Positions 6,971-64,000 of a stretch of DNA of 64,000 nucleotides are shown piece by piece. Location of the stretch: the IMG/VR virus record IMGVR_UViG_3300023202_000137, positions 1 to 64,000 of that record. The stretch is one strand, 5' to 3'. Below the pieces are notes generated by a model, which saw only the letters and a list, made by a program, of their open reading frames with translations, ran no database searches and was not told the DNA's origin. The first letter of the stretch is position 1; each line of letters starts with the position of its first letter. The translations under genes and the position numbers were made by a program. The stretch is from a virus.

Positions 6971-7317
6971 GCCGTTATCTTCTTGCGCTTACCGATACTC
7001 ATAGTTCCGGGAACGAAGTAGACACCCCCGCCCGTAATATCGTACCCCTCTCCCTTCTTCTCCACCAACAACACTGCGTTGCCGCAACGACCGCATGTCG
7101 TCTGGATTCTATCCTTCACCAATGGCTGCCCACCCCGCGTACGCAGCTTCCCCTCTGGATCTCGGTACCGGTACTTGTCCCCGATGTCTGGATCGACCTC
7201 CAGAACCTTGAACGTGTTGAGAAACTGCGTGGCGTCCGCTTTCTTTCCTACCTCAAACTCCACCGTGCCAATTACCTTGCGCTCACCTGCACAGTACACT
7301 CCGAACGTTTCTCTCAT
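6967..7317 (-). CDS. Hypothetical protein with one CxxC pair
   Basis: A protein of 116 residues from ATG 7317, after GAGGGTACAG; an upstream GTG at 7335 is less likely. Beta-rich: MRETFGVYCAGERKVIGTVE; the C-terminal half has TTCGRCGNAVLLVEKKGEGY. It follows a terminator-like hairpin at 7336-7386. Role unknown. Confidence 0.62.
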   Translation of the reverse strand: MRETFGVYCAGERKVIGTVEFEVGKKADATQFLNTFKVLEVDPDIGDKYRYRDPEGKLRTRGGQPLVKDRIQTTCGRCGNAVLLVEKKGEGYDITGGGVYFVPGTMSIGKRKKITA

Positions 7318-7335
7318 CTGTACCCTCACGACCAC

Positions 7336-7386
7336 CGAGAAAATTGAGGGGGCGGGACTGTTGGTGGTCTTCGTTCCCGCCCCCTC
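7336..7386 (-). terminator. Terminator-like hairpin after the RusA-like gene
   Basis: A perfect 12-bp stem (7346-7357 with 7375-7386, GAGGGGGCGGGA/TCCCGCCCCCTC) with a 17-base loop. On the minus strand it is followed by AATTTTCTC. The T run is short, so termination may be partial. Confidence 0.6.
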
Positions 7387-7389
7387 GAC

Positions 7390-7779
7390 TCACCACCCTT
7401 CGGGGATGGTTTTACTCAAGGGCTTTCGCCCATCCACTATCACAACCTCGACTCGCGGATTGCTTTTGTCGTACACCGGAGGGCAAAAGGCACCACCCGT
7501 GTACTTGTCTCCACCAGGCTGCCCGTAGAACAGCGCGTCAGCAATGGCCTTGCGGACGTTCTCGGGATCTGGGTGCCTCCCATCCGCAAAAAAAGCCCTG
7601 GTGTAAATACTGACCGGCCTTTCCCGAGTCACTGGCCCGTGCCGGTATCCTGCAACCATCGCTGCAGCTCGCACTCCATCACAATAGAGGGAGTACCTGC
7701 GCTTCGTTGACCACTTGCTTTTGTCGTATTGCGCAAGGAACGCAACCGGTGGTCCCGGTATCGTGAACTGTATTCTCAC
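7390..7779 (-). CDS. rusA: RusA-family Holliday junction resolvase
   Basis: A protein of 129 residues, close to the family's usual 120. Starts MRIQFTIPGPPVAF, the typical RusA N-terminal strand. The acidic active-site region is HPDPENVRKAIADALFYG (D71, E73, N74, K77, D81) with a further Asp at D91. Established: RusA enzymes use conserved Asp residues to cleave four-way junctions. Expected role is resolving replication/recombination intermediates before packaging. Overlaps the ASCH gene by four bases. Confidence 0.85.
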   Translation of the reverse strand: MRIQFTIPGPPVAFLAQYDKSKWSTKRRYSLYCDGVRAAAMVAGYRHGPVTRERPVSIYTRAFFADGRHPDPENVRKAIADALFYGQPGGDKYTGGAFCPPVYDKSNPRVEVVIVDGRKPLSKTIPEGW

Positions 7780-8165
7780 TCAACCAACCTAAACCGTACC
7801 GCAAAGCACTCACGCTGCAACGGTAGCTCTCCGTAGATATCCATCAGCCCACGCCAAAGTTCATCGTGCGTACTCATTCCCTCGGCCTTCGCATCCTCAT
7901 CTGTGAAGTCGCAAACCTTCTGCGCTCGCACGTCCAATATCTCAATGTCTGCGATCTTCTCAGCCTCCAACTCTCCAACTCCCTTGCACTCGTAACAGCA
8001 CTCGTCGAGCAACACCTGTTCCCCGTGGCAAACCGGGCACTGGCCTTTGATTGTAACCGCTTCCTCGATCATGCCCGCTGCAACCTTGGGCACGTCCCAG
8101 AAGCGCCGAGTCTCTGTCTTTCGTCCCTGCAGAATCATTCGCTTGTGCCTTGGTAGAAACTTCAC
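7776..8165 (-). CDS. ASCH-domain protein with zinc insertion
   Basis: A protein of 129 residues from a GTG at 8165 (VKFLPRHKRMILQGRKTETRR) overlapping the upstream TGA. The ILQGRKTETRR motif and the C-terminal FAVRFRLVE are typical of ASCH domains, a PUA-like fold proposed to bind RNA. Inserted is CPVCHGEQVLLDECCYECKG, a DnaJ-like zinc module. Substrate unknown. Confidence 0.72.
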   Translation of the reverse strand: MKFLPRHKRMILQGRKTETRRFWDVPKVAAGMIEEAVTIKGQCPVCHGEQVLLDECCYECKGVGELEAEKIADIEILDVRAQKVCDFTDEDAKAEGMSTHDELWRGLMDIYGELPLQRECFAVRFRLVE

Positions 8166-8545
8166 CGTTGCTCCACGATCCGAAGATATCGGATGAGTGT
8201 GTTCACCATGTGGTGTTTCCAATCGAACTCTGGGAGCTTCCCGGTCTGGCGTAGGTCATGGCAGCGGCGGCACAAAGGGATTGTTCGATAGTCATCCGTT
8301 TTCTGCGACAGTCCACGCGGACCGATGTGATCAGGATCTACGCGGGGCTCGGCTCCGCACCGGCAACAATTTTGTTGGCGTACGAACTCCAAATAGTGCG
8401 GCGCTTTCGCTGCCCCCTCGGGTTTGGACCAGAACAATCGTGGACGTTCCCGGTGCGACTTCGCGAGCCAGTAACCGATCATCGCCTCCATTGCATCGGT
8501 CCCATACTCTCCGCTTAGATCTTCCAGCAATTCTTGTGGTGTCAT
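8162..8545 (-). CDS. HNH-type nuclease-like protein
   Basis: A protein of 127 residues. Residues 58-100 contain CCRCGAEP, then DPDHIGPRG (D72 H73) and LCRRCHDLRQTG (C92, C95, H96), the order seen in HNH/DUF968 or Ref-like phage nucleases. The N-terminal 50 residues are helical. Likely a DNA endonuclease in recombination or repair, between the ASCH gene and the collar gene. Start shares one base with the upstream stop. Confidence 0.72.
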   Translation of the reverse strand: MTPQELLEDLSGEYGTDAMEAMIGYWLAKSHRERPRLFWSKPEGAAKAPHYLEFVRQQNCCRCGAEPRVDPDHIGPRGLSQKTDDYRTIPLCRRCHDLRQTGKLPEFDWKHHMVNTLIRYLRIVEQR

Positions 8546-9357
8546 TAGGCAACTCGGATGATTGGGATCACTTCGTAAAACAGAGGGTCGTTACTCTGGG
8601 TGTTAGTGCCCGGTGAGCTTCCTCCGGTGTTCGCAGAGCTTGGTCCCCCCGTCGTGTTGTTGCTCGGGCTTCCAGTATTCGCCGTGCTCGGGCCGTTCGT
8701 TGCTGGCGGGGTAGTGACCTGGGTAAGAGCAGCCCGCGCTGGTGCGCTCACCTCTGCAGCCTTCGCCTGCGTCGAACGCCTCGCAGTGAAAACTACCGAC
8801 CCGTAGAGGGGGAGATCGGACGCATTGCCTATCCAATATTCCGATCCATCATCAAAACCGATTGGCATATTGTGAGCATGGGCACTTTGACCGTGTACGT
8901 GGTTTTGCATCGAATGAAAGTGGTTCTGCATTGAGTGGGTGTGGCTCTGCATCGAATGGGTGTGCGAGTTTACCGTGTGGCTGTGGTTCGCTGCACCGCC
9001 CGTCCCTCCTGCCGTCGCTGCAGCCTTGAAGTAGCGCCCGATTAGATTGGGTGTGCCGTTGCTTCCGTCTGCGATCTGCCACCCATCCGGTATTGCTGCC
9101 AGAGTGTTGACGAAACGGATCGTCCCGATAGGCGATAGCGTGTCGTAGAAGAAATCAGCAACCGCATTGATGCCCGTGTTTATTGCGCTGTCCTCGGGGT
9201 CGTACGCGATTCCTGTCTCTAGGTCGTCCTGCCTTGGTATCGGCACAACACTCCCCGGAGTACCAAAGCCAATGCGCACACCATCCTGCGAGCTGGCATC
9301 AGCCAGCAACTGCAGGATGGTTCGCAGCGCATCGCGTACCGCTTGCGGGGCCGCCAT
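8545..9357 (-). CDS. Tail-collar-like fibre protein with His-x-His repeats
   Basis: A protein of 270 residues from ATG 9357 (MAAPQAVRDALRTIL), overlapping the upstream stop. The middle has IGTIRFVNTLAAIPDGWQIA, the start of a phage tail-collar domain, then PNLIGRYFKAA. Residues about 130-165 hold six or more His-x-His pairs in seven-residue repeats (SHTHSMQ, NHFHSMQ, NHVHGQS). Established: such HxH rods in receptor-binding fibres coordinate metal ions. The C-terminus is a low-complexity Ser/Thr/Gly/Asn stretch. It lies 20 kb away from the other fibre genes. Confidence 0.8.
   Translation of the reverse strand: MAAPQAVRDALRTILQLLADASSQDGVRIGFGTPGSVVPIPRQDDLETGIAYDPEDSAINTGINAVADFFYDTLSPIGTIRFVNTLAAIPDGWQIADGSNGTPNLIGRYFKAAATAGGTGGAANHSHTVNSHTHSMQSHTHSMQNHFHSMQNHVHGQSAHAHNMPIGFDDGSEYWIGNASDLPLYGSVVFTARRSTQAKAAEVSAPARAALTQVTTPPATNGPSTANTGSPSNNTTGGPSSANTGGSSPGTNTQSNDPLFYEVIPIIRVA
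8897..8970. repeat. 21-bp tandem repeats encoding His-x-His heptads
   Basis: Units such as TGCATCGAATGGGTGTG and TGCATTGAGTGGGTGTGGCTC recur with small changes, giving the heptads SHTHSMQ/NHFHSMQ. Unit length matches seven codons, so slippage could add or remove metal sites in frame. Confidence 0.6.
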
Positions 9358-9611
9358 CAGTCTAGCTCTTTCCACATGATTGGGACCCGCTCACCATCTC
9401 CAACATCAGCGAATACCACCATGGCACTGCCATCCTCTACCTCGTTCGTGCTCCTGTCTTCCAACTGGAACGAAACTTTGAACGCCCCCAAGGACACCGG
9501 CTGGATATCTCGAACCTGCCCTATTGGGTACGGCTCGTTGTCCACCACCATGTTGATCGTAGGATCGATACAAAGCGCCTCAACCACTGCGTCACGTAGT
9601 TCCTGCTTCAT
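9357..9611 (-). CDS. Hypothetical protein beside collar gene
   Basis: A protein of 84 residues: MKQELRDAVVEALCIDPTIN, then a beta-rich part (LGAFKVSFQLEDRSTNEVED, ERVPIMWKELD). No family recognised. Overlaps both neighbours. Confidence 0.62.
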   Translation of the reverse strand: MKQELRDAVVEALCIDPTINMVVDNEPYPIGQVRDIQPVSLGAFKVSFQLEDRSTNEVEDGSAMVVFADVGDGERVPIMWKELD

Positions 9612-9859
9612 AGGTCCACCCTAACCTTGTACTGGTCCGCGAGGTTTCGTAGCCAATCTAATTGGCGTTCCGTACACACTGCGTTGTCTCCCTCAACCGC
9701 AATGCGTCCCGCCATCTGCTCGATGAACTCTGCCGACTTCTTGTTCCCGTAGTGCATCGCTTGCACCTTGGGGGCTAGCGCCGACAGCAGCTTGCGAGCT
9801 TCGGCCAAGGTCTCGTTGTGCCTCACGGCTTCCATCAGTGGGTTGATCTTTCTACTCAT
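9608..9859 (-). CDS. Hypothetical helical protein
   Basis: A protein of 83 residues, helical: MSRKINPLMEAVRHNETLAE and VCTERQLDWLRNLADQYKVR. The latter resembles short helical phage proteins found near replication genes. Function unknown. Confidence 0.6.
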   Translation of the reverse strand: MSRKINPLMEAVRHNETLAEARKLLSALAPKVQAMHYGNKKSAEFIEQMAGRIAVEGDNAVCTERQLDWLRNLADQYKVRVDL

Positions 9860-10157
9860 CTGCTGGTCTCAATCCTCCGGTGCCACGCCGTACGGGCTCG
9901 GCCCTGGCAGCGAATGTTTGCAATCCGCGCGCACGCAACGACCGTGCTGCGTTCTCGGCTCGCTTCCGTGTCTGTATCTGTCGTCGCTGTTCGAGGGCTT
10001 CCTCTTCCAGCATTTCCTCCAGCTCGCTCCCGTCTTCGGCCTGGAATATCTCGTGCTTTGCGATCTGCAAAGCGTGCTCATATCCCGACGCCAACTCTGC
10101 ACGTCCGGCTGCTCGTGCCCTTGCTGCCAACTGTTGGAGTCGTTCAAAGAGCCTCAT
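9852..10157 (-). CDS. Hypothetical coiled-coil protein
   Basis: A protein of 101 residues, strongly helical and charged (MRLFERLQQLAARARAAGRA; LEEMLEEEALEQRRQIQTRK), probably a coiled coil, with a Gly/Arg/Pro tail. Role unknown. Confidence 0.6.
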   Translation of the reverse strand: MRLFERLQQLAARARAAGRAELASGYEHALQIAKHEIFQAEDGSELEEMLEEEALEQRRQIQTRKRAENAARSLRARGLQTFAARAEPVRRGTGGLRPADE

Positions 10158-10453
10158 CGCTTCCCTCTCTTACCTTTGCTTCTACTGCGTTGAACTTTGC
10201 GACCCTGCCCTATCGGTCCGTCGTGCCGTACGGGTTTGCCGCGCTTCTTTTCTTCCGGTGTCGTTTTCTCCGTCACGTACGAGATCAACCCCCCCGTGCT
10301 CTTAGGGCCCAACGCTCGCACGCGGTACTTCTTTTCCAACTCCTCCCTCGCCAGCTTCTTCGCTTCGGAAACCGTTCGGCCAGTAACCTCGAACGTCGCA
10401 ACCGCATGCGGGTTCGCTCTGCCTTTGATCACTTCGTAGACTTCAACCTTCAC
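10154..10453 (-). CDS. Hypothetical basic protein
   Basis: A protein of 99 residues from GTG 10453, overlapping the upstream TGA as GTGA; the longer frame to 10615 shadows the upstream gene. A beta/helix part (KVEVYEVIKGRANPHAVATF, SEAKKLAREELEKKYRV) is followed by a very basic tail (RSRSKGKRGKR). Possibly nucleic-acid binding. Confidence 0.6.
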   Translation of the reverse strand: MKVEVYEVIKGRANPHAVATFEVTGRTVSEAKKLAREELEKKYRVRALGPKSTGGLISYVTEKTTPEEKKRGKPVRHDGPIGQGRKVQRSRSKGKRGKR

Positions 10454-10830
10454 GACTTCTTTCCTCGCCGCAGGGACACAACGTCCAGCCCCTTGCCAAG
10501 TTTGTTCACACTCATCGCACGGTACCCTCCGCATCCTCGGGGGTCTTCGTTGTCCCGGTAGAATGGACAGGGGAGTGTAACCCCAGGCGCTTCCTTCTTG
10601 GACAGCCAAGAGCACATGCCGTGCTTGTCGATATGGTCACATGGGGTTGCAACCTGAGCCTCCCAAAGCTCCCGCAGTTTCGCCCGCAAGGCGTTAGGTG
10701 GAACGATGCCCTGCTCGTGATAGCTTTTTGCCTTGAGTACCCAGCCCAGCTCACTTTCGCCTCCATGTCCTGATTCGACAATTTCCCGGAGCTTTGGTTC
10801 AAGCTCTTCGATCAAATCTTCGTAGTTCAT
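10450..10830 (-). CDS. Hypothetical protein with Cys4 cluster
   Basis: A protein of 126 residues from ATG 10830 (ATGA overlap with the amidase stop). Helical N-terminus MNYEDLIEELEPKLREIVES. The C-terminal half has TPCDHIDKHGMCSWL, LPCPFYRD and PRGCGGYRAM, a four-Cys cluster that could bind zinc or an Fe-S centre. Lies directly downstream of the amidase gene. Confidence 0.62.
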   Translation of the reverse strand: MNYEDLIEELEPKLREIVESGHGGESELGWVLKAKSYHEQGIVPPNALRAKLRELWEAQVATPCDHIDKHGMCSWLSKKEAPGVTLPCPFYRDNEDPRGCGGYRAMSVNKLGKGLDVVSLRRGKKS

Positions 10831-11588
10831 GTCCGCTCGTACCCTGCGTTCTCGAACGCTGGCCATAGCGTCAACCCTGGGTCCACCTTTGTGCTGCTTA
10901 CCTGGTAGTGCCCCACCACCCCTGACTCGATCTCATCGAGCTTCTGACTTGGCAACGGTATCCGTTTCGGAATCTCGAACGCTTTGCAGATTGCATCTGC
11001 CAGCTCAACGCAACGACTCTTCTGGGCTGCGGTGAAGTCCTGATGATTCCAAACCTGCCGACCATTGGGTTTTGCTTGCTCCTTCACCATTGGCCGACCA
11101 TCCTGTGGGTTCCACCACTTTTCGAGAACGGGATTGTTTACTTCAACCCCGATGCTTCGCCAGTTGATAGGCGGCGCATGTTGGGCAATCCATTTTGCTG
11201 GGTCACAAAGCTGATAGAGCGTTGCTGCAGCATCGCCGTCGATCATGAAATGGATACCCAACCCTCGCTGTAGCAAAACCTCGTGGCACTGGTGCGAGCT
11301 TTTGCAAACATCCCAATGGAACACGAACACATCTGGGCGACGCGAGCGCGGCTTTAGATGCGCAGACGGCAAACCAAGTCCACCGTCCTGATCCCAACGT
11401 ACCACCGGAAACTCTACTGGCACCTCTCGACCTGCAATGATCAATGCGTTTGTGCTCATCTCCCCTTTGCCTTTCGTTCGCAGGTAGATCGTTCCACCCA
11501 TCGTTACAATGTGCGCGTCTTGATCTCGCGCTGGCTTTGCGTACAGCCACGCGAAGAACCGACGCAGTGCCTCTATCAGTTTTTTCAT
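10827..11588 (-). CDS. N-acetylmuramoyl-L-alanine amidase (amidase_2-type endolysin)
   Basis: A protein of 253 residues from ATG 11588 (MKKLIEALRRFFAWLYAKPA), ATGA-coupled. Zinc-amidase features: VFVFHWDVCKSSHQCHE (H91), GLGIHFMIDGDAATLYQLCD with its variant reading, RSIGVEVNN, and VVGHYQVSSTKVDPG near the C-terminus (zinc His and catalytic region). Established: amidase_2 enzymes cleave the sugar-peptide bond of peptidoglycan. No signal peptide; the N-terminal 20 residues are amphipathic and basic. Likely the phage endolysin, but it lies far from the holin-like genes at 26-30 kb. Confidence 0.82.
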   Translation of the reverse strand: MKKLIEALRRFFAWLYAKPARDQDAHIVTMGGTIYLRTKGKGEMSTNALIIAGREVPVEFPVVRWDQDGGLGLPSAHLKPRSRRPDVFVFHWDVCKSSHQCHEVLLQRGLGIHFMIDGDAAATLYQLCDPAKWIAQHAPPINWRSIGVEVNNPVLEKWWNPQDGRPMVKEQAKPNGRQVWNHQDFTAAQKSRCVELADAICKAFEIPKRIPLPSQKLDEIESGVVGHYQVSSTKVDPGLTLWPAFENAGYERT

Positions 11589-12001
11589 GGCGTTGTCTGC
11601 GGGTATCCGTTCGACGCCAAGAACTCCGCTGCAACGTACTCCAACATAACCCCTTTCCAAGCTCGCTTGCCTGGGATCTGCGTTGATAGCTCTTTCGCTC
11701 GCTCCATCGCAGCCATGATTATGTCCCGTTGCTCTAGGGTGATTCGGAACCGCAGTGTGGTCCAACCGTCTTCGAGTTTTGGATCTTTGTTCGGTCGTAC
11801 GCGCCGCTTGCGCGTGAGCTTCTCATCCTTGGTATCGGATAGAAACTTGTTCGTGGCGCCCGACACGTCGCGCTCTACCACTTCCGTGTCCGGGTCAAGC
11901 CCTCCCGATGCAATGTGGGTCTCAGCTTCCTGCTTGAGATCCTCCATCACATTGCGAGCTTTTATCAGTTTCTTTTTTGTTTCCGCTGTTAAGTCTGGCA
12001 T
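11585..12001 (-). CDS. Hypothetical protein
   Basis: A protein of 138 residues starting MPDLTAETKKKLIKARNVM after GAGGGAAACCAA. A charged linker (RKRRVRPNKDPK) leads to a C-terminal unit LRFRITLEQRDIIMAAMERA, reminiscent of a ribbon-helix-helix strand plus helix. DNA binding is possible but unproven. Confidence 0.6.
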   Translation of the reverse strand: MPDLTAETKKKLIKARNVMEDLKQEAETHIASGGLDPDTEVVERDVSGATNKFLSDTKDEKLTRKRRVRPNKDPKLEDGWTTLRFRITLEQRDIIMAAMERAKELSTQIPGKRAWKGVMLEYVAAEFLASNGYPQTTP

Positions 12002-46583: not shown

Positions 46584-48182
46584 CTACGCTGCCAGTTCCT
46601 CTTCCAGCGCACGCGTGTCTTGCGTCACCTTCAGGATGATGAACTCGGCAGGTTTGTTGGTTGCCAGCCCAATCCGCACGATGAGCTGCCCAGCAAACAC
46701 TACCGAGGGTGGGTTGAGTGCGTCCGACGCGTCGATGAAGAACGCGGTTGCTGGATTCTGAGATCTGAATGCTTCGTTCCTCATCTGGGTAATGAGAAAC
46801 GCGTTGATGGTACGTCGCACCCGCGCTCGCAATTGGGGGGTATTGTTCGAATGCTTCGCGAACAGAAGCCCAATCTTCAACGAGGTCTCGATGAAGATCA
46901 CCCCACGCCGCTCTGCTACGAACGGGAAGTTGCCATCCCCCTTGAGGGTACGGCTCCCGTCGATGTGACGAGGGGTTCCAGTGAACGCAGTCAGAGGGTT
47001 GATGCGCTTGGGAAACACGATGTCCCGCTTGCGCTCGTCGAGAACTTGGTGTTGGGGCAACCCGTCCGGGTCGTCCTCGAATCCGACGCAGCCAAAGATG
47101 ACTCCACGCTCGACACCCGCAGGGGACTGGTAGATTCCACCGGGTCGGCTGCTGTCGATTCGAGCATACACCCCGACAATGAAGCCGGAAGGCGGTACCG
47201 TGATGGTATCACCGCTACCGAAGACTGCAGCGCTCGGATTGACGATCTTGATTCGAGGCCAGTAGATGGCCGCGAACTCACTTAGCCCAAGCAACGCAGC
47301 GGTGCTCTCGACGTAGGTTACGATAGCTGCAGCGTTGTTCGACGAGGGCGGGTCGAGTACCGCAAAGCAAGTTCCGTCGCGAGTCACTTCGCAATAGGTC
47401 ACCATCGCGTTGTGGATGCCGGAGGTCGCTTGCCCGGGGACGATCAGCAGGGTGATGTTCTGGATGATATCCAGAGCACGTAGCCCAGTTGGACCTGCGT
47501 CGCTTCCGATGAAGTCGGTATCAGCGAGGGAAGTCAGGCCGTCGTCGCCACTGGTCAGGGAAAAGGTACCGTTGACCGGTCGGTCTTGCAGCGGGGTTCC
47601 CCCTGCGTCTTGATCGGTCACACTGATCAGGTTCGATCCTGCGCTGCCATTGACGACAGTCTCGGCAAAGTTTGGAGACGTGTCATCCATGGTGAGGTTC
47701 GGGAAAACCTCTACGACAATACCGCCGTCGATCACGAACAGGTCGAACTCGGCAGCTTCACCGCTGGTTGCATCTGCGACTTCAACGTCGAGATCGTTAG
47801 CGTATGCCCCTGGTGTTTTGCCATCCACCTGCAGGGTGTTGTTCGGTCCGGTTGCGTCCTGGAGTGTGACTGTACCTACAACTGCGGTTGCGGTTCCGGG
47901 GTCTGTGATGTCCGTGTAGTGAACCGTACGAACGATCCACATCTGCTCGCCGCCATTGAGAAAAAACCCAAAGGCTGCCGTGGCTACGTCAGACGCTGTC
48001 GTGAAGCCACCAAAGACACGAACGTACTCATCGAAGCTGGTCACGAGTGTTGGAACACCAACCGGACCTCGCTCCGTGATACCAACGACACCGACCACCG
48101 CAGTTGGCAGTGCAGGGATCGAACGGATCCGAGGTTCTTCTTCGATAATTACGATCTTGGAAGCGAGCAGTGCTTGGGACAT
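46584..48182 (-). CDS. Tail sheath protein
   Basis: A protein of 532 residues. The start IIEEEPRIRSIPALPTAVVG and GFFLNGGEQMWIVRTVHYTD, and the end RRTINAFLITQMRNEAFRSQ and LIVRIGLATNKPAEFIILKV, match phage sheath proteins, with the C-terminal strand that links subunits. Middle domain is variable beta. Length typical. Confidence 0.92.
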   Translation of the reverse strand: MSQALLASKIVIIEEEPRIRSIPALPTAVVGVVGITERGPVGVPTLVTSFDEYVRVFGGFTTASDVATAAFGFFLNGGEQMWIVRTVHYTDITDPGTATAVVGTVTLQDATGPNNTLQVDGKTPGAYANDLDVEVADATSGEAAEFDLFVIDGGIVVEVFPNLTMDDTSPNFAETVVNGSAGSNLISVTDQDAGGTPLQDRPVNGTFSLTSGDDGLTSLADTDFIGSDAGPTGLRALDIIQNITLLIVPGQATSGIHNAMVTYCEVTRDGTCFAVLDPPSSNNAAAIVTYVESTAALLGLSEFAAIYWPRIKIVNPSAAVFGSGDTITVPPSGFIVGVYARIDSSRPGGIYQSPAGVERGVIFGCVGFEDDPDGLPQHQVLDERKRDIVFPKRINPLTAFTGTPRHIDGSRTLKGDGNFPFVAERRGVIFIETSLKIGLLFAKHSNNTPQLRARVRRTINAFLITQMRNEAFRSQNPATAFFIDASDALNPPSVVFAGQLIVRIGLATNKPAEFIILKVTQDTRALEEELAA

Positions 48183-56590: not shown

Positions 56591-57532
56591 CTACGCAACC
56601 AGTACGTTCTGAACCTTCACCGCAGCGGTTTCCTCTGCGAGCTTCGTATCGAAGCGTAGAGTTGCCACGATGATCACAACGCCAGCCGACACGTCCTTGT
56701 CGGTCTCCACGCGGATGTTCCGCCAGATACCAACGTTGACGTTCTTCGGATCTGTCAAGATCATCTCGGTGCTGTCGTTGCCGCCGCCCAAGTCTTCCGG
56801 TGCCACGGGCACTGGGACGATTGGAACACCGGAATACATCACCGGGGCATCTTGCTCCAGGAACCGATCGCCAACCACCGTCGCACGCTCAGCGAGCGCG
56901 TCACGGTAATCGATCTCGGAGTCGATGCTGGTCATGAACCGCATCTGACGCTTGTTGCGTAAGAACTCCGAGGGCATGGTCTTCAGCGAGTCACGGAACA
57001 ACGTCTTGTTGGTCCGTGCGCCCGCTGCATCCACCAGGTTACTGGTGGTCAGCGCACGCACGCCGTCGAACTTGGCAAAGAAGGGGTCGGCAGAGCCGGT
57101 GTCCCCGTTCCAGATCATATCGTCCATGTCGAGCGCGACGCGCTCGGCCATCAACTCCATGACCGTTTGGCGGAAGTTGCCCCGCTCGATGCTGTCTTCC
57201 AGCACCTCGTTGGACAACCGTACCTCTGCCTTGAAGAGTTGGGCATCCAACTCAACCAGAGAGAGGTCCGGCTTACTCCGCTCTGCCTGGGTCAGAGCTA
57301 CGGCCTCGTTTCCAGCTCGGAGAATTCGTCCGGCGAACCGGATCTTCTCGATGAGCTGCTTGGGCGACCGCATCGGAACCACGGTGGCCATCTTCATGAG
57401 CACCGCTTCGTCGATGAGAATGCGCATGAAGCGCTGGGCTTGCGCTGGCTGCAGAAGCCCACCGTCGTTGGTGAGATCCGCCAAGGCCATATCGGCCTTT
57501 TCCAGCAGGGTTCGGTTTGCAGTAACAGTCAT
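56591..57532 (-). CDS. Major capsid protein, HK97 fold
   Basis: A protein of 313 residues. N-terminal helix ([20 protein letters not shown]), RIGNEAV-like strand ([20 protein letters not shown]), [20 protein letters not shown] and [20 protein letters not shown] match compact HK97-type capsids, ending with [20 protein letters not shown]. No long delta domain, so a separate scaffold is expected (next gene). Confidence 0.85.
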
Positions 57533-57578: not shown

Positions 57579-58778
57579 TCAGTAGTCCCGCTGCTTGGCG
57601 TTCATGTCGTGGGGCCAAACTACATCCCCAGTGTCTTTCTTCGTCACGCTCTCCCCGGTGGGGGTTTGCGACGATGGAAGACCAACGCCATTCTTCAAGG
57701 ACTCGATCTCCTCGCGTTGCTTCTCAATGGTTTTGTTCTGCTTGGAGACCTTCTTCTTGAGGTCGCGCATCTCATCCAGACTTTCCTGGAGTTGGTCCGC
57801 AACCTTGGTGAGATCGGCCAACCCCGGAATGTCCCGCATGATACGAGCTGCATCCGAAACCGCGCTGTCATCAGGCTGCTCACCTGACCCAACGTTCGGG
57901 CCCTTGGTATTCGGAGCATCTTGGGGGGCTTTCTTTGCTTCGGATACGACTTCTTTCATCGTACCGAAAAGCTCCTTTAGCTCCTGCATCCACTGACCTC
58001 TGGCCTTGCTTGTGCCTTCCCGATTGTCGCTGTTGCCGTCATCGCTTCGCCCTTCAACGAGCGAAGGATCACCGCCACGACTTTCGAGTACGGCGTCGGC
58101 ATGTCGCTCCAGGTGCCGACGCGCTGCAGCCAACTCATCCTCGGGCAAGTCGGATTTCTCCAACGCCTTGAGAGATCGCTTCAACGCCTCAACGTCCAGA
58201 GTTTCATGCTCGTTCGGGTCACCCACATCGGAACTGTGGTGACGGAAGAAACGCGTGGCTGCATCCTCACCCTTCGCAGTCTTCACAACTGCAAAGGCAG
58301 AGTCGGGAAACTTCTTCTGCGCCTTCGCCTTCTTCTTCTTCTTATTCTTCTTGCCTTTGTCTTTGCTGTAGGTGGTGTCATCGTCGTCGTCATCGTCGTC
58401 GTCCTGTTTGACGATGCCTGACTTGGACACCACACGGATGGCATCCCCTATATCCTTGGCTAGTTCCTCGGGAATTGAAGCACTCGTGTCGTCAATCTGT
58501 GCAGACTTCACAATTTCTTGGATGCCCTGCAGGCGACTCAGGGTTTTGCCGACGGCTTCGAGGATGGACTCGCGTGACTCAGTGCTGAGTGCGAGCGCGC
58601 TCTGGGCACTGAAGCTGCCGTCATCGTTCTCAACGATCTCGGGAGCAACGTTGCCGCGCTTTGTGAGAATGAACTTGCGCTTGTTTGCGGCGCGATCTAC
58701 GAGGCTCACCTCTTCGGTTTCGATGTCTTCGAGTCGATGTAGCCCGTCGCCATCGGACCGTGCTTTTCGAATTGTCAC
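57579..58778 (-). CDS. Scaffold-like protein starting with the second half of an XkdF-type domain
   Basis: A protein of 399 residues from GTG 58778, with AAGGAGG four bases upstream. LEDIETEEVSLVDRAANKRK (15-35) is the EVSLVD element that normally ends an XkdF-type head protease domain; the rest of that domain lies at the end of the gene upstream. The remainder is a charged scaffold: poly-Asp run, Lys-rich run (KGKKNKKKKKAK), a helical middle and a coiled coil near the C-terminus (LKKKVSKQNKTIEKQREEIE). Likely internal scaffold for the capsid coded next. Confidence 0.75.
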   Translation of the reverse strand: MTIRKARSDGDGLHRLEDIETEEVSLVDRAANKRKFILTKRGNVAPEIVENDDGSFSAQSALALSTESRESILEAVGKTLSRLQGIQEIVKSAQIDDTSASIPEELAKDIGDAIRVVSKSGIVKQDDDDDDDDDTTYSKDKGKKNKKKKKAKAQKKFPDSAFAVVKTAKGEDAATRFFRHHSSDVGDPNEHETLDVEALKRSLKALEKSDLPEDELAAARRHLERHADAVLESRGGDPSLVEGRSDDGNSDNREGTSKARGQWMQELKELFGTMKEVVSEAKKAPQDAPNTKGPNVGSGEQPDDSAVSDAARIMRDIPGLADLTKVADQLQESLDEMRDLKKKVSKQNKTIEKQREEIESLKNGVGLPSSQTPTGESVTKKDTGDVVWPHDMNAKQRDY

Positions 58779-61700
58779 GCAGCCTCCTTAACAGGTTTTC
58801 GAAGTGCGGACCCTCCGATAGAAAACCCTGTGAGATCACCTCGTTTTATCGCTCGCCAGAGTGCGTCGTCAAGAACGCGAACAGCGAGCAGCCACGTGCC
58901 CTTGCGGACCTTCGTTCCGTTCACGTTCATCTCCACTGGGGCAACGTAGCTTTCCAAGATCTTGACCTTGCTGTTGATCACCCCCTTGTGCATCAGTCCG
59001 ATATTACGGAACTTCTCCATGAATTTGTGGGCGCTCTCTCGAATATCCTCTGCGCTGTAGATGTCCTTCTGGGTGTCGGGATCGAGCGGCGCGCCTTCCG
59101 TACCATCGTTTGGCTCCAGCACCACGCCAAGCACGAAGCGTTCGTCGTCGGTAGACTTCTCGGTCTTCAGCAATGGCAGCTTTTTCTGCAGGACCTCGTC
59201 AAACGCCTTCTGATCCTCTGTCTGTGCATTACCCTTGAACACTGCGCAAAGCTCATTTCCACCGAACGTGTAGCTCGCATCGGCTGCTTTGATGATAGCA
59301 CCGTTCGACTCGGGAGACTCATTTGCCCAGACCAGCGCCTCCTGCAGCTCGATATCCGTACGGACCAATTGCGAGGGGGTCAGGTACACCTGCTCTGACT
59401 TCTGCAACAAATGCTCGACCTTGCGGCGTCGCTCGATATATCGCTTCGCCGTCACATTGCCTGCACTGGGGAGGAACAGTGCGTCATGAATACCTAGGTA
59501 AGTGGTCGCGCGATCACCAGAGGTAATAAATCCGTCGAGCACAAAGTCCCCGCCCAGCTTTCGTACCTCGTTCTCGATGTCGCATCGAAGCTCCTCGCGC
59601 TTCTCGGTCTGTCGCTTCAGGATTCCAATCACACCCTTAACCCCAGCGGTCAGGGTGATGGTTCGGAACGATCCCTCTTTGAACTCTCCGGGCTCTCGCT
59701 GACGGAACCGATAGGAATCCTCGGTTTCATCAACCTTGCCCGAAGTGAACTCATGCTCTTTCAACCAGCGTCGAGCATCGGCTTCGCTCTTGAAACGCTT
59801 TTTGTCCAAGATCAGTGTTTGCAGCGTCGTGCTTTGCTTCATGAAGATGCGCACGCGCTCGGCTCGCTTTTGCACGGAGACTTCCAGCCCATCGAGGCGT
59901 GGTTCCACGAGCATCCCACCTTGCAACGTGGTCGATGTCGCAACCTTCTGCAGAAGCTCCTCGCCGCTTGCGTACTCTGAACCCATCATGGGTTCGTAGA
60001 GTGCGAACGGTCGTAGCTGACGACGGTCCAGAGAGGGATCTGTCGAATTCGCCCAGACCTGGAGCCCCTGACGTACCGGGACTTGCTTGATCACGGAGTA
60101 AGATTCGACGGGCTCCAACTCGGCTTTCGCCAATTCGTACTCTGCGAAGCGTTTGGACAACTCCCCTCTGTTCTGGACTTCGTTGATGTGGCCGGGGGCA
60201 AAGCTCGCAGCACAGTCGTTGCACTCGACAACAGACAAAGAGCGACCGCCGTCCATGTGGCTTTTGCCGGTCTTGCGAACATTGAGGCTACCGCAAGGCG
60301 GGCATTCTACATGGCTGAGGTCTTCCCCGCGACGCAAGAAAACCTGCGCCGACGCTCCGCGACTCGACTTGCTAATCTCCTGGGACTCCTCTGCGACGAG
60401 AACCCAATGCCTTGATCCCGGCTCCTCTGCCTTGAGCGTGTAGATGCCTCGCATCTTTCCACGGAACCGCAGTCGGATCTCATCCTCACTTTTGCTCAAG
60501 AACTCCACAAACCCAGAGTCCACGTTTCGTACCCAGCTCTCCATGCTCTTGGTAGCATTGAGAATCTCGCCACCGATTTGCTCGGCAGGCTTTGCCTGAC
60601 CCTCGAACTTCATGAGCTTTGTGCTCTTGAGCGTGCGGCAATCCCCTGCGATGCGCTCGTGCCCCTGCAAGGGGTCGCGGTCTAGCGCCCAGGCTTGCTT
60701 TCCAATCACAAGATGCCACCGCTCTCGCGTGGGGCTGTCACCCTCTGCCGATTTCCATTGCTGCCAAGCAATTCCGTAGGGCTTCGATGTCTCTTTGTCC
60801 TTCTGTGTTCCTGTGTCGAGGTATATTTTATGTAGGACCCGCTGGAAGTCCCCGTTAACGACTTTCACGTTCGAGTCAGTGAAATGTCCACGCTTCACCA
60901 ACTCGTCGCGCATTGCGCGAGCTTCCTCCCCACGAGCCTCCCAGTATCGCAAGGAACTTGGCACGAGTCGTTCGAGCGAAACAGGAATTCCAGAGTACCC
61001 GTCAGGCGGCATGACTCTGGCCTTTGCTGCACGCTCGGTGAGCACGAGTGGGCGAAGGTCCGTCTGCCATTGGGACCACCACCGGGGTTTCTCGGTTTTT
61101 TGCAGCGAGAACAGCAACCGCCCCTGGAACTCTGGGTCGCCCGTAAAAAAATACTCGTGAGCCGATGGTGTCTGCAGGCCGTACTCGACCTTTAGGTCTG
61201 GATCGGTCACCCGAGATAGTACTGCGGGCTCCTCTGCAGTTGCCCCAACCTCACCTGGCTGGACCTTCTCGTGATCGAGATTTAGCCAGGCCATGGGGCT
61301 CTGCCCCTTCGGGGTAGCAGCAACCCCCTCATTCCAATCACGCTCAAAGTAAGAGCCGCTCTTTTGAAATCGTCGAGCAAATCGCCTGGCCTCCCTTACG
61401 TCTTTGACTGTCGGAACCCGACCGGGCTGGTGGTTGTCAATGGTCCACCCCACCGTCACGTCGTCGAGCTGCAACCGGAGGTCGCCGTGCATCCCCTTGC
61501 CTATAAAATGGTACTGATAGACGGCCTGGCGCTTCCCCCTAGACTTCGGAACCAAGCACAGCGCCTCGGCCTTAGTCACAGTGTCGATGCACTGCTGACC
61601 GTGAACCTCAGCGTCACTGGCCTGGAGGATTCGAAACTCTCCATCCCCGGGCCGTACCTCGTGAGACTTGGGCACCAGCCATAGGTCGTACAGGCCCACC

Positions 61701-64000
61701 CTATTTTCAGGACCCCCGATGTCTCCACCCTCCGCTGCGGCGGTTCGACCAAACATTCCCTCGGGAACAAGGGATTCTATGTGAGGGGAAAGACTGGGCC
61801 CGCTCAATAGAAGGTCGATGTCACCTTTGGTGACTCCCCAGTTCGCGAGACCGCCGACAACTGACACCGCATCACGCTCCAGAAGCACGGGTCGTAGCTG
61901 GGTCGTCACTTGATCTAGCTGAATTTCTCCGCTGTGCTCTCGGGAATTCTTTGAGTGATGCGAGCGGCCAAACTCATCCGACGCCAGTCGCATCACTTCA
62001 GACAATGCACCCAGACCGTTGGTAACTCCCTTGCCAAGCGACTTGATAGCGTCCTGTGGAAGTTTCGACAGATGTCCGTGGAGATCTTTGACCACCTGCA
62101 GAAGATTGTGTTCCCCACACTTCGTCAGCTTTCCGGTGTTAACCGCCGAGAGATCTTTCTTCAAAGCCTCCGCGCGTCTGGGGAACGAATCAAGAAACGA
62201 CACGATTGGTTGCTTGCCCTGCATGCCCGACAGCAAAGAGACGCTGCGCTTGCAGAAGCTCGGCGCGAGTACAGCGAGCTGATGTGCTAGCGACTGTGCA
62301 GACTTCAGCGATTCAACTTCATCGTCGTTCAGCTCTATGGCTTCGGGCTCTGGGTCTTTGAACTTCTCTACTTTTGAAACGCGGTACCCCCAAAGAACTT
62401 TGGATTTCGGCCACCGCTTCTCGCGCTCCTCATCAGTCAACCCATGCTCGGTCACCGTCTCGGCAAACTTCCATGTCGAGATCTTCTCTGCGGCCTCAAC
62501 TTCGATGATTCCGTAGTCGGTGCTTCCGTCGGTAACCAGCACCGGGCCTTCGATGCTGTGCTTCTTTGCTTCGAGAAACATCGACACATCACCGTCGATG
62601 ATCTTACGAGCGTGGTCCGGTGTCGTCTCGAATTCCAGAGCTGCTCGTCGTCGCCTTTCATCGCTTTCACGCAACGAGTGTCTTGCCTCTGCACCAGCGT
62701 CGATGAACAAATCGCTGGTGCCGAACCAATTGATCGGACCGTCCACCACCTGGCACTCGCCAACCGACCCGGTCTCCGCTCGAAGATAGAACCGGCAATT
62801 GCCGCACACCCGCTCCCGGTCGGCAGACTGCCCTAGCTCTGGGACATAATCGGCCTCGTCTTGATTGAATTTCCTACCGTTTTCCTCCACCCGCCTGATC
62901 GTCTCGTCGGCCTCCCAGCCACGGCTATTTTGGGGGGCTTGCTTGGTCGCGCGATCTCGATCTTCCTCGATGGCCTTTCGGATGTGCTCGGTTTCGGGCC
63001 CGACGTACACAAGCAACGGACTCGTGTAGCTCTTGGCTAGCTCAACGACCTCGCGATCCATGGTATCGAACATCTCGTCGTAGCCAAGCATCGCCTTTTG
63101 CATGGGGAGTATCTCCCCCTTCTCTAGCGACTTATTTATATGGCTGTTGAGTTTCTGGAAAAACCGTTTGTAGGTTCGGATCGAAAAACGCAGTCGGTCT
63201 TCCCGCTTCAGGAAGTCAAATCCCTTGGCTTGCGCAGAGTCTCGAATTTCCTTTGGAACTTTGTCTTTCGCGAAACCTGATACACCTGGCCAACCGTTCT
63301 TTCGAGTCGTGAGCACTTCGACGCGACCGTAGGCAGGGCCAAAGGCCCACGAGGTAAAATCAAACGAGTCAACGTGCTTCCAGAACTCTGCGTACCGCCA
63401 ACTTCGGCGACCAACACCCAATAGATGCAAGTAGGTGTGGTTGTGTGTCTTGCAGAGATCTGTACGCTTTCGACATACCTCGATAAGCTGGGTGTTCGTT
63501 GCGCTCCGATAGCTTCCCTTGCCTTTTCCCCCTTCAGAGCTTCCCCCTTTGCCGTCCTTCTTTTCTTCTTTGTCTTTGCGCGACAGCCAAAACGAATTGA
63601 CCATGCCACCCCAGGCAACTTTCTTCCCGGTGCGGTAGTATTGCTTCGCGCGGTCCGTGATCTTTGTTGGGATGTGGTCAACATATATGGGGGCAACACC
63701 CAACTTCACTAGGGCTTCAAAGTTTTCGTCGGTCTTCTTTGGGCTCGACGGAACGTCGATGGGCATGAACTCTTCAACAAGTGACTTGTGAGACTTCACA
63801 AAGTCGGCGTACTCTTCGATTGATACCTTTCCCCCATGCACTGCTGCAGAAAACGCACCCGAGTCCAGCAACACACGCACGCCGTTTAGCTCCTTGGGTA
63901 ACCCTTTCTTGAAGTAGTGGTAGGAAACGAGCATCTCTCGGATGCCCTCTTCCTTGAGTATCTGGATCTGATCTTTGGCTACGGCGACGAAATACGAGTG
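58775..64000 (-). CDS. Giant head polyprotein: TGT/DpdA-like, NTase-like, LigD PE-like, ligase-fold and XkdF-type regions (5' end outside window)
   Basis: The frame is open to the right edge (22 codons before the Met at 63934), so the start is missing. Counting from that Met, 1,719 residues. Regions: 20-200, DSGAF, GGM and LLGVG, then FDFTSW, the pattern of TGT/DpdA-like enzymes; 377-394, CGNC...C; 693-710, VGGLANWGVTKGDIDLLL, nucleotidyltransferase-like; 808-830, HFIGKGMHGDLRLQLDD, like the LigD phosphoesterase; 1211-1241, zinc ribbon; 1340-1560, ATP-ligase fold with VEPRLDG, FVLDGFI and NGAIIK; 1598-1712, XkdF-type (FVLGVVLEPND, ESYVAPVEM, LTGFSIGG). Precedes scaffold and capsid genes. Domain calls other than XkdF and ligase fold are tentative. 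Confidence 0.72.
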   Translation of the reverse strand, partial: HSYFVAVAKDQIQILKEEGIREMLVSYHYFKKGLPKELNGVRVLLDSGAFSAAVHGGKVSIEEYADFVKSHKSLVEEFMPIDVPSSPKKTDENFEALVKLGVAPIYVDHIPTKITDRAKQYYRTGKKVAWGGMVNSFWLSRKDKEEKKDGKGGSSEGGKGKGSYRSATNTQLIEVCRKRTDLCKTHNHTYLHLLGVGRRSWRYAEFWKHVDSFDFTSWAFGPAYGRVEVLTTRKNGWPGVSGFAKDKVPKEIRDSAQAKGFDFLKREDRLRFSIRTYKRFFQKLNSHINKSLEKGEILPMQKAMLGYDEMFDTMDREVVELAKSYTSPLLVYVGPETEHIRKAIEEDRDRATKQAPQNSRGWEADETIRRVEENGRKFNQDEADYVPELGQSADRERVCGNCRFYLRAETGSVGECQVVDGPINWFGTSDLFIDAGAEARHSLRESDERRRRAALEFETTPDHARKIIDGDVSMFLEAKKHSIEGPVLVTDGSTDYGIIEVEAAEKISTWKFAETVTEHGLTDEEREKRWPKSKVLWGYRVSKVEKFKDPEPEAIELNDDEVESLKSAQSLAHQLAVLAPSFCKRSVSLLSGMQGKQPIVSFLDSFPRRAEALKKDLSAVNTGKLTKCGEHNLLQVVKDLHGHLSKLPQDAIKSLGKGVTNGLGALSEVMRLASDEFGRSHHSKNSREHSGEIQLDQVTTQLRPVLLERDAVSVVGGLANWGVTKGDIDLLLSGPSLSPHIESLVPEGMFGRTAAAEGGDIGGPENRVGLYDLWLVPKSHEVRPGDGEFRILQASDAEVHGQQCIDTVTKAEALCLVPKSRGKRQAVYQYHFIGKGMHGDLRLQLDDVTVGWTIDNHQPGRVPTVKDVREARRFARRFQKSGSYFERDWNEGVAATPKGQSPMAWLNLDHEKVQPGEVGATAEEPAVLSRVTDPDLKVEYGLQTPSAHEYFFTGDPEFQGRLLFSLQKTEKPRWWSQWQTDLRPLVLTERAAKARVMPPDGYSGIPVSLERLVPSSLRYWEARGEEARAMRDELVKRGHFTDSNVKVVNGDFQRVLHKIYLDTGTQKDKETSKPYGIAWQQWKSAEGDSPTRERWHLVIGKQAWALDRDPLQGHERIAGDCRTLKSTKLMKFEGQAKPAEQIGGEILNATKSMESWVRNVDSGFVEFLSKSEDEIRLRFRGKMRGIYTLKAEEPGSRHWVLVAEESQEISKSSRGASAQVFLRRGEDLSHVECPPCGSLNVRKTGKSHMDGGRSLSVVECNDCAASFAPGHINEVQNRGELSKRFAEYELAKAELEPVESYSVIKQVPVRQGLQVWANSTDPSLDRRQLRPFALYEPMMGSEYASGEELLQKVATSTTLQGGMLVEPRLDGLEVSVQKRAERVRIFMKQSTTLQTLILDKKRFKSEADARRWLKEHEFTSGKVDETEDSYRFRQREPGEFKEGSFRTITLTAGVKGVIGILKRQTEKREELRCDIENEVRKLGGDFVLDGFITSGDRATTYLGIHDALFLPSAGNVTAKRYIERRRKVEHLLQKSEQVYLTPSQLVRTDIELQEALVWANESPESNGAIIKAADASYTFGGNELCAVFKGNAQTEDQKAFDEVLQKKLPLLKTEKSTDDERFVLGVVLEPNDGTEGAPLDPDTQKDIYSAEDIRESAHKFMEKFRNIGLMHKGVINSKVKILESYVAPVEMNVNGTKVRKGTWLLAVRVLDDALWRAIKRGDLTGFSIGGSALRKPVKEAA

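Follow-up and report, generated by a model that had tools for sequence, protein, structure and literature searches.

Domain architecture of the giant reading frame

The window analyzed here is a stretch of 64,000 nucleotides, corresponding to bases 1–64000 of a 90,757-base IMG/VR contig. Near its right edge, the reverse strand encodes a major capsid protein, a scaffold-like protein and a giant protein with at least seven domains (Table 1). The original prediction had read the giant as a single multi-domain frame, and the frame is indeed uninterrupted and contains the named motifs. The ORF is real, but the window limit is not the start of the gene: in the sequence to the right of the window, the frame extends to an ATG 51 bases beyond the edge. 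Initiation at an ATG inside the window (63934) would cost the DpdA domain some of its N-terminal residues. The GC content at codon positions 1, 2 and 3 (~0.6, 0.4 and 0.65) is of the coding type and even along the whole giant. This uniform composition, together with the recurrence of the same domain order in about 20 independent contigs, rules out a sequencing error or another artefact joining separate genes, one of the outcomes that the original prediction had named as refuting it.

Table 1 Features of the giant and of the two genes that follow it (residues numbered along the 1,758-aa protein)
Feature	Residues	Position (strand)	Basis
Giant ORF, 1,758 aa		58775..64000 (-), start at contig base 64051	Open frame
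DpdA/TGT-like domain	13-400	62852..64000 (-), first residues beyond window	phrog_887 (E 2e-21), tblastn, motif alignment
Cys cluster CGNC...C, HiPIP-like by weak Pfam match	416-431	62759..62806 (-)	PF01355 E 0.0056 and 0.0012, below cut-off
~100-aa conserved domain	475-575	62327..62629 (-)	Leave-one-out 34 bits, E 6e-10
Pol-beta-type nucleotidyltransferase (NTase) core	710-813	61613..61924 (-)	Leave-one-out 32 bits, invariant residues, ANMV-1 match
LigD-type 3'-phosphoesterase (PE), copy A	831-1090	60782..61561 (-)	Leave-one-out, invariant residues, Foldseek
LigD-type phosphoesterase, copy B, catalytic His/Asp/Arg lost	1089-1220	60392..60784 (-)	Family profile against 3p43, 3p4h
Zinc-ribbon-like CxxC...CxxC knuckle	1250-1280	60212..60304 (-)	Sequence; weak PF23451 E 0.009
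ATP-dependent DNA-ligase fold, probable pseudo-enzyme	1328-1606	59234..60070 (-)	Profile, Foldseek, motif alignment
XkdF-type prohead protease, His and Ser kept	1614-1756	58784..59212 (-)	PF14550 E 2e-25
Scaffold-like ORF beginning EVSLVDRAANKRKF		57579..58778 (-)	phrog_3017 positions 4-34 match; next gene in fused relatives
Major capsid protein		56591..57532 (-)	phrog_1623 E 1e-93

Leave-one-out profiles, built from relatives only with the window protein excluded, scored 356 bits for the PE region (covering both copies), 185 for XkdF, 70 and 39 for the ligase, 34 for the ~100-residue domain and 32 for the NTase. The top score among 500 local shuffles was 4.3, which rules out chance motif matches as the source of the domain calls. 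All domain assignments of the original prediction that were examined hold: TGT/DpdA by sequence, the NTase by profile and invariant aspartates, the PE and ligase by both sequence and fold, and the C-terminal protease by its Pfam family. A search of solved structures with the raw giant sequence returned nothing useful.

The N-terminal domain matches the DpdA family phrog_887 over residues 15–402 (E = 1.8e-21), and tblastn matches include phage DpdA proteins, that of phage 9g among them. The LLDSGAFSA motif is present, and an alignment with the phage 9g DpdA and Me-ZS1 proteins reveals that DSGAFS, His209 and Asp228 are kept. The N-terminus thus carries the DSG(A/G)F motif and downstream Asp/His of the TGT fold, as had been proposed from the sequence; a search of solved structures with the DpdA alignment gave nothing useful. 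The cysteine cluster that follows had also been predicted and is present, but with three cysteines rather than four. The ~100-residue domain has no Pfam match, looks ASCH/PUA-like by eye and recurs in six relatives, which we label by locus number (L008, L017, L023, L029, L037 and L046).

The NTase core bears the motif VGGLANWGVTKGDIDLLL, and Gly733, Asp744, Asp746 and Asp789 are invariant in 17 of 17 aligned members. The predicted nucleotidyltransferase-like site is therefore borne out by the family profile and by the retention of all three aspartates. The adjoining phosphoesterase bears the motif QYHFIGKGMHGDLRLQ; His848, His855, Asp857 and Arg859 of copy A are likewise invariant (17/17), and His965 is also among the copy A residues. 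In an AlphaFold model that includes this region (mean pLDDT 80; about 90 in the PE part), Foldseek matched the PE part to the LigD phosphoesterases 3p43 (E = 6e-6) and 3n9d (E = 3.5e-5), so that the giant has both the fold and the H...HxDxR signature of LigD 3'-phosphoesterases. The site expected here is thus confirmed by sequence and fold, but it is not single: it is the first of a tandem pair. In copy B, the family profile matches 3p43 (E = 5e-7) and 3p4h, and the catalytic motif is replaced by PSRxVWHL.

The predicted zinc ribbon is present as CPPC..CNDC and is modelled as a beta hairpin (pLDDT 85–89). The ligase fold stands by sequence (the two ligase scores above) and by structure (Foldseek of the model to DNA ligases, E = 1.8e-8), but its active site is degenerate: motif I reads EPRLDG, with an arginine where the other ligase-holding members have a lysine, motif III has a phenylalanine in place of the glutamate, and the OB fold is missing. 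Motifs I and III speak against an active enzyme, and the window's ligase is probably a catalytically dead relic. Used alone as a query, the ligase part matched no phage record. The C-terminus is of the predicted XkdF type (Peptidase_S78_2), and its catalytic His and Ser are invariant in 20 of 20 members. It is the sole S78_2 domain found in the window's genome, where searches for another XkdF, S78 or ClpP-type protease returned none.

Relatives, exchangeable modules and genomic context

Searched with a PE-region profile made from the window protein and ANMV-1, IMG/VR gave 14 loci, and a second round recovered 41. Alignment-based scans alone succeeded; IMG/VR scans that started from one protein, either the giant or that of ANMV-1, gave no hits. 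In a genome-collection search, a 12-sequence alignment was too diverse, and a four-sequence alignment found a Myxococcales MAG contig only. About 28 distinct relatives emerged from the 41 IMG/VR contigs, an archaeal virus and the Myxococcales MAG. They are either giants of 1,233–2,226 amino acids ending in the protease or split genes at the same place. All fused relatives are uncultured, and among 50,697 phage records searched for the NTase–PE part only ANMV-1 matches, which makes the family invisible to culture-based work. The domain models used to map the relatives were seeded from the family, which inflates the scores of seed members; the window's domains were rescored without the window protein.

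The family core is NTase–PE–(ligase–OB), with the NTase ahead of the PE in all but a few members. XkdF forms the C-terminus of 20 of the 28 tabulated proteins (the window's included) and of L057, and the ligase is absent from eight fused members (L009, L015, L017, L023, L026, L029, L033 and L043). The variable modules are a D12 methylase, DpdA, another methylase, a PNKP-type phosphatase, a metallo-beta-lactamase fold and SpeD. The D12 adenine methylase is present once in L007, L009, L015, L017, L030 and L042, twice in L021, L036 and L043, and three times in L057 and L058. DpdA also occurs in L030, a protein of 2,226 amino acids (phrog_887, E = 6e-6). Single members carry a class-I methylase (L026; Pfam E = 0.001), an S-adenosylmethionine decarboxylase (L043; E = 2e-26), a PNKP-type phosphatase (L046; E = 1e-6) or a metallo-beta-lactamase fold (L020; E = 3e-15).

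Several loci have unusual arrangements. L042 and L057 have a D12 methylase that separates PE copies A and B instead of preceding both. The L043 giant (1,522 amino acids, bases 7256–11821) starts with the S-adenosylmethionine decarboxylase, followed by the two D12 domains, a Cys-rich segment that looks YkgJ-like by eye, and XkdF. L058 has an extra insert before the NTase (about 8690–9592) with an ADP-ribosyltransferase-like look (YRG, STS-like, GELVV; Pfam DRAT, E = 0.047). L057 and L058 are the two ends of one 105.8-kb contig, JACPVI010000063.1, binned as Myxococcales, each with a portal–MuF–giant module. These head modules are similar but not identical, which could reflect mis-assembly, duplication of the module or the presence of two related viruses; the contig hints at Myxococcota hosts.

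In a PE tree rooted by midpoint, in which ANMV-1 and L020 have long branches, a supported branch (99/95) separates the split forms from the fused ones. Fusion to XkdF therefore looks like one event, as judged from this sequence tree. The D12 label needs about six changes on the same tree, and the two DpdA carriers, the window and L030, do not group. The DpdA profile from L030 to the window is weak (6 bits) and the link between both runs through phrog_887; they may have a single DpdA origin.

Where contigs reach far enough, the gene order in the fused clade is terminase, portal, MuF-like gene, an ORF of about 110 amino acids, the giant, an ORF with the EVSLVDRxANKR motif, and major capsid; in some fused loci, a match to one of the small ORFs was not detected. 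The capsid gene downstream is of the phrog_1623 type in the fused relatives whose flank extends that far, that of L026 and L030 being a more distant relative. Ordinary XkdF genes combine the EVSLVDR motif, protease and scaffold in one gene (phrog_3017). In the window, this match is divided, with positions 4–34 in the scaffold-like ORF and 36–158 in the giant, and we conclude that the protease moved to the enzyme chain while the scaffold stayed. In ANMV-1, the head cluster consists of portal, NTase–ligase–OB–PE and MuF, with the enzymes apart from any protease. Other split arrangements, in which the protease or scaffold ORF was identified by sequence reading, are D12–NTase–ligase–OB, then PE, then protease/scaffold (L018/L019); D12–ligase, then OB–NTase–PE, then a protease/scaffold-type ORF (L041); and portal, PNKP–NTase–ligase–PE, protease-type ORF and capsid (L046).

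Upstream of the window's giant, a molybdopterin-oxidoreductase-fold ORF (contig 64011–64763, L002:6512–7264; PF00174, E = 2e-29) shares its last 41 bases with the giant's start. About 1 kb upstream lies a FolE2/MptA-like GTP cyclohydrolase gene (contig 65048–65962, L002:7549–8463; PF02649, 33.7 bits, above cut-off), which adjoins a TIGR00725/LOG-type gene in the head operon, is probably connected with the giant's DpdA and may feed it. QueC and QueD have no recognisable gene in the window's genome, a linear contig that may be incomplete, and a complete deazaguanine pathway was not found; with these two genes missing, the giant's DpdA would depend on host preQ0. Two scaffold-like genes flank the giant, the one listed in Table 1 and one at contig 66507–67340 (L002:9008–9841). 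At the C-terminus their products carry a common motif, DVVWPHDMN in one and DVRWPSDMN in the other, which may serve as a capsid-binding tail. Two further genes match tail-sheath families (46584–48182, phrog_15814/phrog_23; contig 74262–76349, L002:16763–18850, phrog_15433).

Possible roles of the fused enzymes

A prohead protease must sit inside the procapsid, and proteins fused to it should therefore enter as well. We see an even chance that the giant is a prohead protease with an N-terminal cargo of DNA-acting enzymes carried into the head. Several observations argue for head cargo: the conserved position in the head module, both fused and as separate genes (ANMV-1, L046), with the enzyme genes of L018/L019 and L041 likewise immediately ahead of a protease/scaffold-type ORF; the invariance of the XkdF His/Ser pair in a protein that holds the genome's sole S78_2 domain found; the broken phrog_3017 order, in which the protease joined the enzyme chain; the exchange of modules while PE and protease persist; and the precedents of polyvalent proteins and P1 DarB. 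Base modification combined with end healing in one cargo points to upkeep of the genome, either as it enters the cell or while it is packaged. We hold the fuller statement a little short of even: that in this clade of tailed viruses the prohead protease is permanently joined to a cassette of exchangeable enzymes for DNA modification and end healing, and that each procapsid is loaded with it and cuts free virion-borne genome-care enzymes. Of the two roles that the original prediction had offered, a prohead protein cut into enzymes is the better supported, given the conserved position and the absence of a second protease among those searched for, with the cleavage step itself presumed. DNA-end processing suits the family but suits the window's member less, its ligase probably being inactive. 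A single end-joining role is further weakened by the loss of the ligase from many members; a search for Ku in the window's genome found none.

We infer that the enzymes are packaged in the virion, and the following sequence of events is plausible. The giant would be made late, from the head operon, and its XkdF part would carry the chain into the procapsid, where the protease would cut the scaffold and probably its own linkers. The freed enzyme blocks, of perhaps 30–60 kDa, would be too big to exit the shell, remain with the packaged DNA and be ejected alongside it. Across the family, the cargo would consist of an end-healing core (NTase, 3'-phosphoesterase and usually ligase) and a swappable base-modification module (D12 or DpdA), which would act on the entering genome by protecting it from restriction and tidying its ends. 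The window's member appears specialised, DpdA replacing D12, with PE and NTase active residues kept and the ligase reduced to a fold.

The nature of the modification modules bears on this proposal. Since the products of DpdA are normally placed in DNA ahead of packaging, this enzyme could do its work without head delivery, which counts against head cargo, as does its expected dependence on host preQ0. Both DpdA and the D12 methylases are known to modify DNA inside the cell, and the FolE2-like gene is what would be expected of a deazaguanine pathway feeding DpdA, as in phage 9g. Both points favor a polyprotein with no head role, an explanation that we regard as unlikely though worth serious weight. 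Here, cutting by the protease within the cell would free the enzymes; DpdA or methylase would then modify replicating viral DNA there, and NTase, PE and ligase would repair it; the fusion would set their amount and their late timing. Such a polyprotein leaves unexplained why the cassette stays in the head module even as separate genes, and why the protease, and not a replication gene, is the fusion partner.

The position next to portal and MuF would also fit head-linked processing during packaging, with nick sealing, 3'-end clean-up after terminase cleavage and last-moment base modification, after which the enzymes would be lost. NTase, 3'-phosphoesterase and ligase, with the PNKP-type phosphatase of L046, make up a complete end-healing set. 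Eight fused members, however, have no ligase, that of the window is apparently dead, and we know of no packaging system that requires end-healing or modification activities; we judge this role improbable. Alternatively, the enzyme domains could be mostly idle as catalysts and belong to a large internal scaffold, in which they would bind DNA or fill the core. This would accommodate the degenerate ligase and PE copy B of the window and the loss of the ligase elsewhere, but is very hard to reconcile with the invariance, across deeply diverged members, of the Asp triad in the NTase, of His/His/Asp/Arg in PE-A and of His/Ser in the protease, or with the repeated gain of unrelated catalytic modules.

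In our literature search, which covered mainly open-access journal papers, no enzyme–protease fusion like this one was found to be described. Should head loading be proven, a cassette joined to its protease in this way would count as a virion component of a new type, with a single gene coupling the maturation of the capsid to the freeing of enzymes inside it. The head-cargo reading would further imply a cargo slot whose contents can be swapped (DpdA, between one and three adenine methylases, or a PNKP-type phosphatase), predict virion-borne DNA repair and modification, tie 7-deazaguanine DNA modification to head assembly and offer a model from nature for filling capsids with enzymes.

Comparison with known systems

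ANMV-1 AJP62006 resembles the giant (29% identity, E = 1e-16) in having NTase, ligase, OB and PE between a portal and a MuF-type gene, although the giant lacks the OB. In contrast to the giant, it has 866 amino acids, no attached protease, the ligase before the PE, an intact catalytic lysine and neither DpdA nor methylase. Bacterial and archaeal DNA ligase D of the NHEJ pathway likewise combines a 3'-phosphoesterase with an ATP-dependent ligase of related folds. The giant differs in its Pol-beta-type NTase, its duplicated PE, its fusion to a prohead protease and the arginine in place of the ligase lysine. Family searches found no primase-type polymerase domain in it; with neither this domain in the chain nor Ku found in the genome, it is not classed as a LigD. 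The N-terminus agrees with phage 9g-type DpdA in sequence and catalytic motif residues, but the usual DpdA is a free enzyme of about 300 amino acids beside queuosine-pathway genes, rather than the N-terminus of a 1,758-aa head-operon protein.

P1 DarB is a 250-kDa antirestriction protein that is carried in the head and believed to be ejected with the DNA (PMC9024508). Like the giant, it is very large, and it has a methylase domain, as do the giant's relatives; DarB is head-associated, as is proposed for the giant. DarB consists of an EcoKI-like methylase and an SNF2-type helicase without a protease, whereas the giant includes a protease and its other modules differ. No helicase match was found in the giant, and the methylases of its relatives are of the D12 type, unlike that of DarB.

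The closest described class is that of the polyvalent proteins of phages and conjugative elements, some of which have a C-terminal assemblin-like peptidase (Iyer et al. 2017, PMC5512222). They hold two to fifteen functionally disparate domains per polypeptide and were proposed to be delivered with the DNA (PMC5512222). Pfam found no zincin MPTase, ArdC-N, ParB, LPD or ART domain in the window protein, SNF2 helicase being likewise unseen, and among the relatives the weak ART-like match of L058 is the only polyvalent hallmark. The text of PMC5512222 includes no LigD-type PE, DNA ligase, queuine transferase/DpdA, XkdF or ASCH, its ligases being for RNA repair only. XkdF, to which the giant's C-terminal protease belongs, has been treated as unrelated to the SH-superfamily prohead peptidases (PMC7824862). 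What the giant, flanked by portal, MuF and capsid genes, has in common with the polyvalent proteins is a set of many unrelated catalytic domains, a portal–terminase context, a Pol-beta NTase domain, in its relatives methylase domains and, perhaps, the embedded protease.
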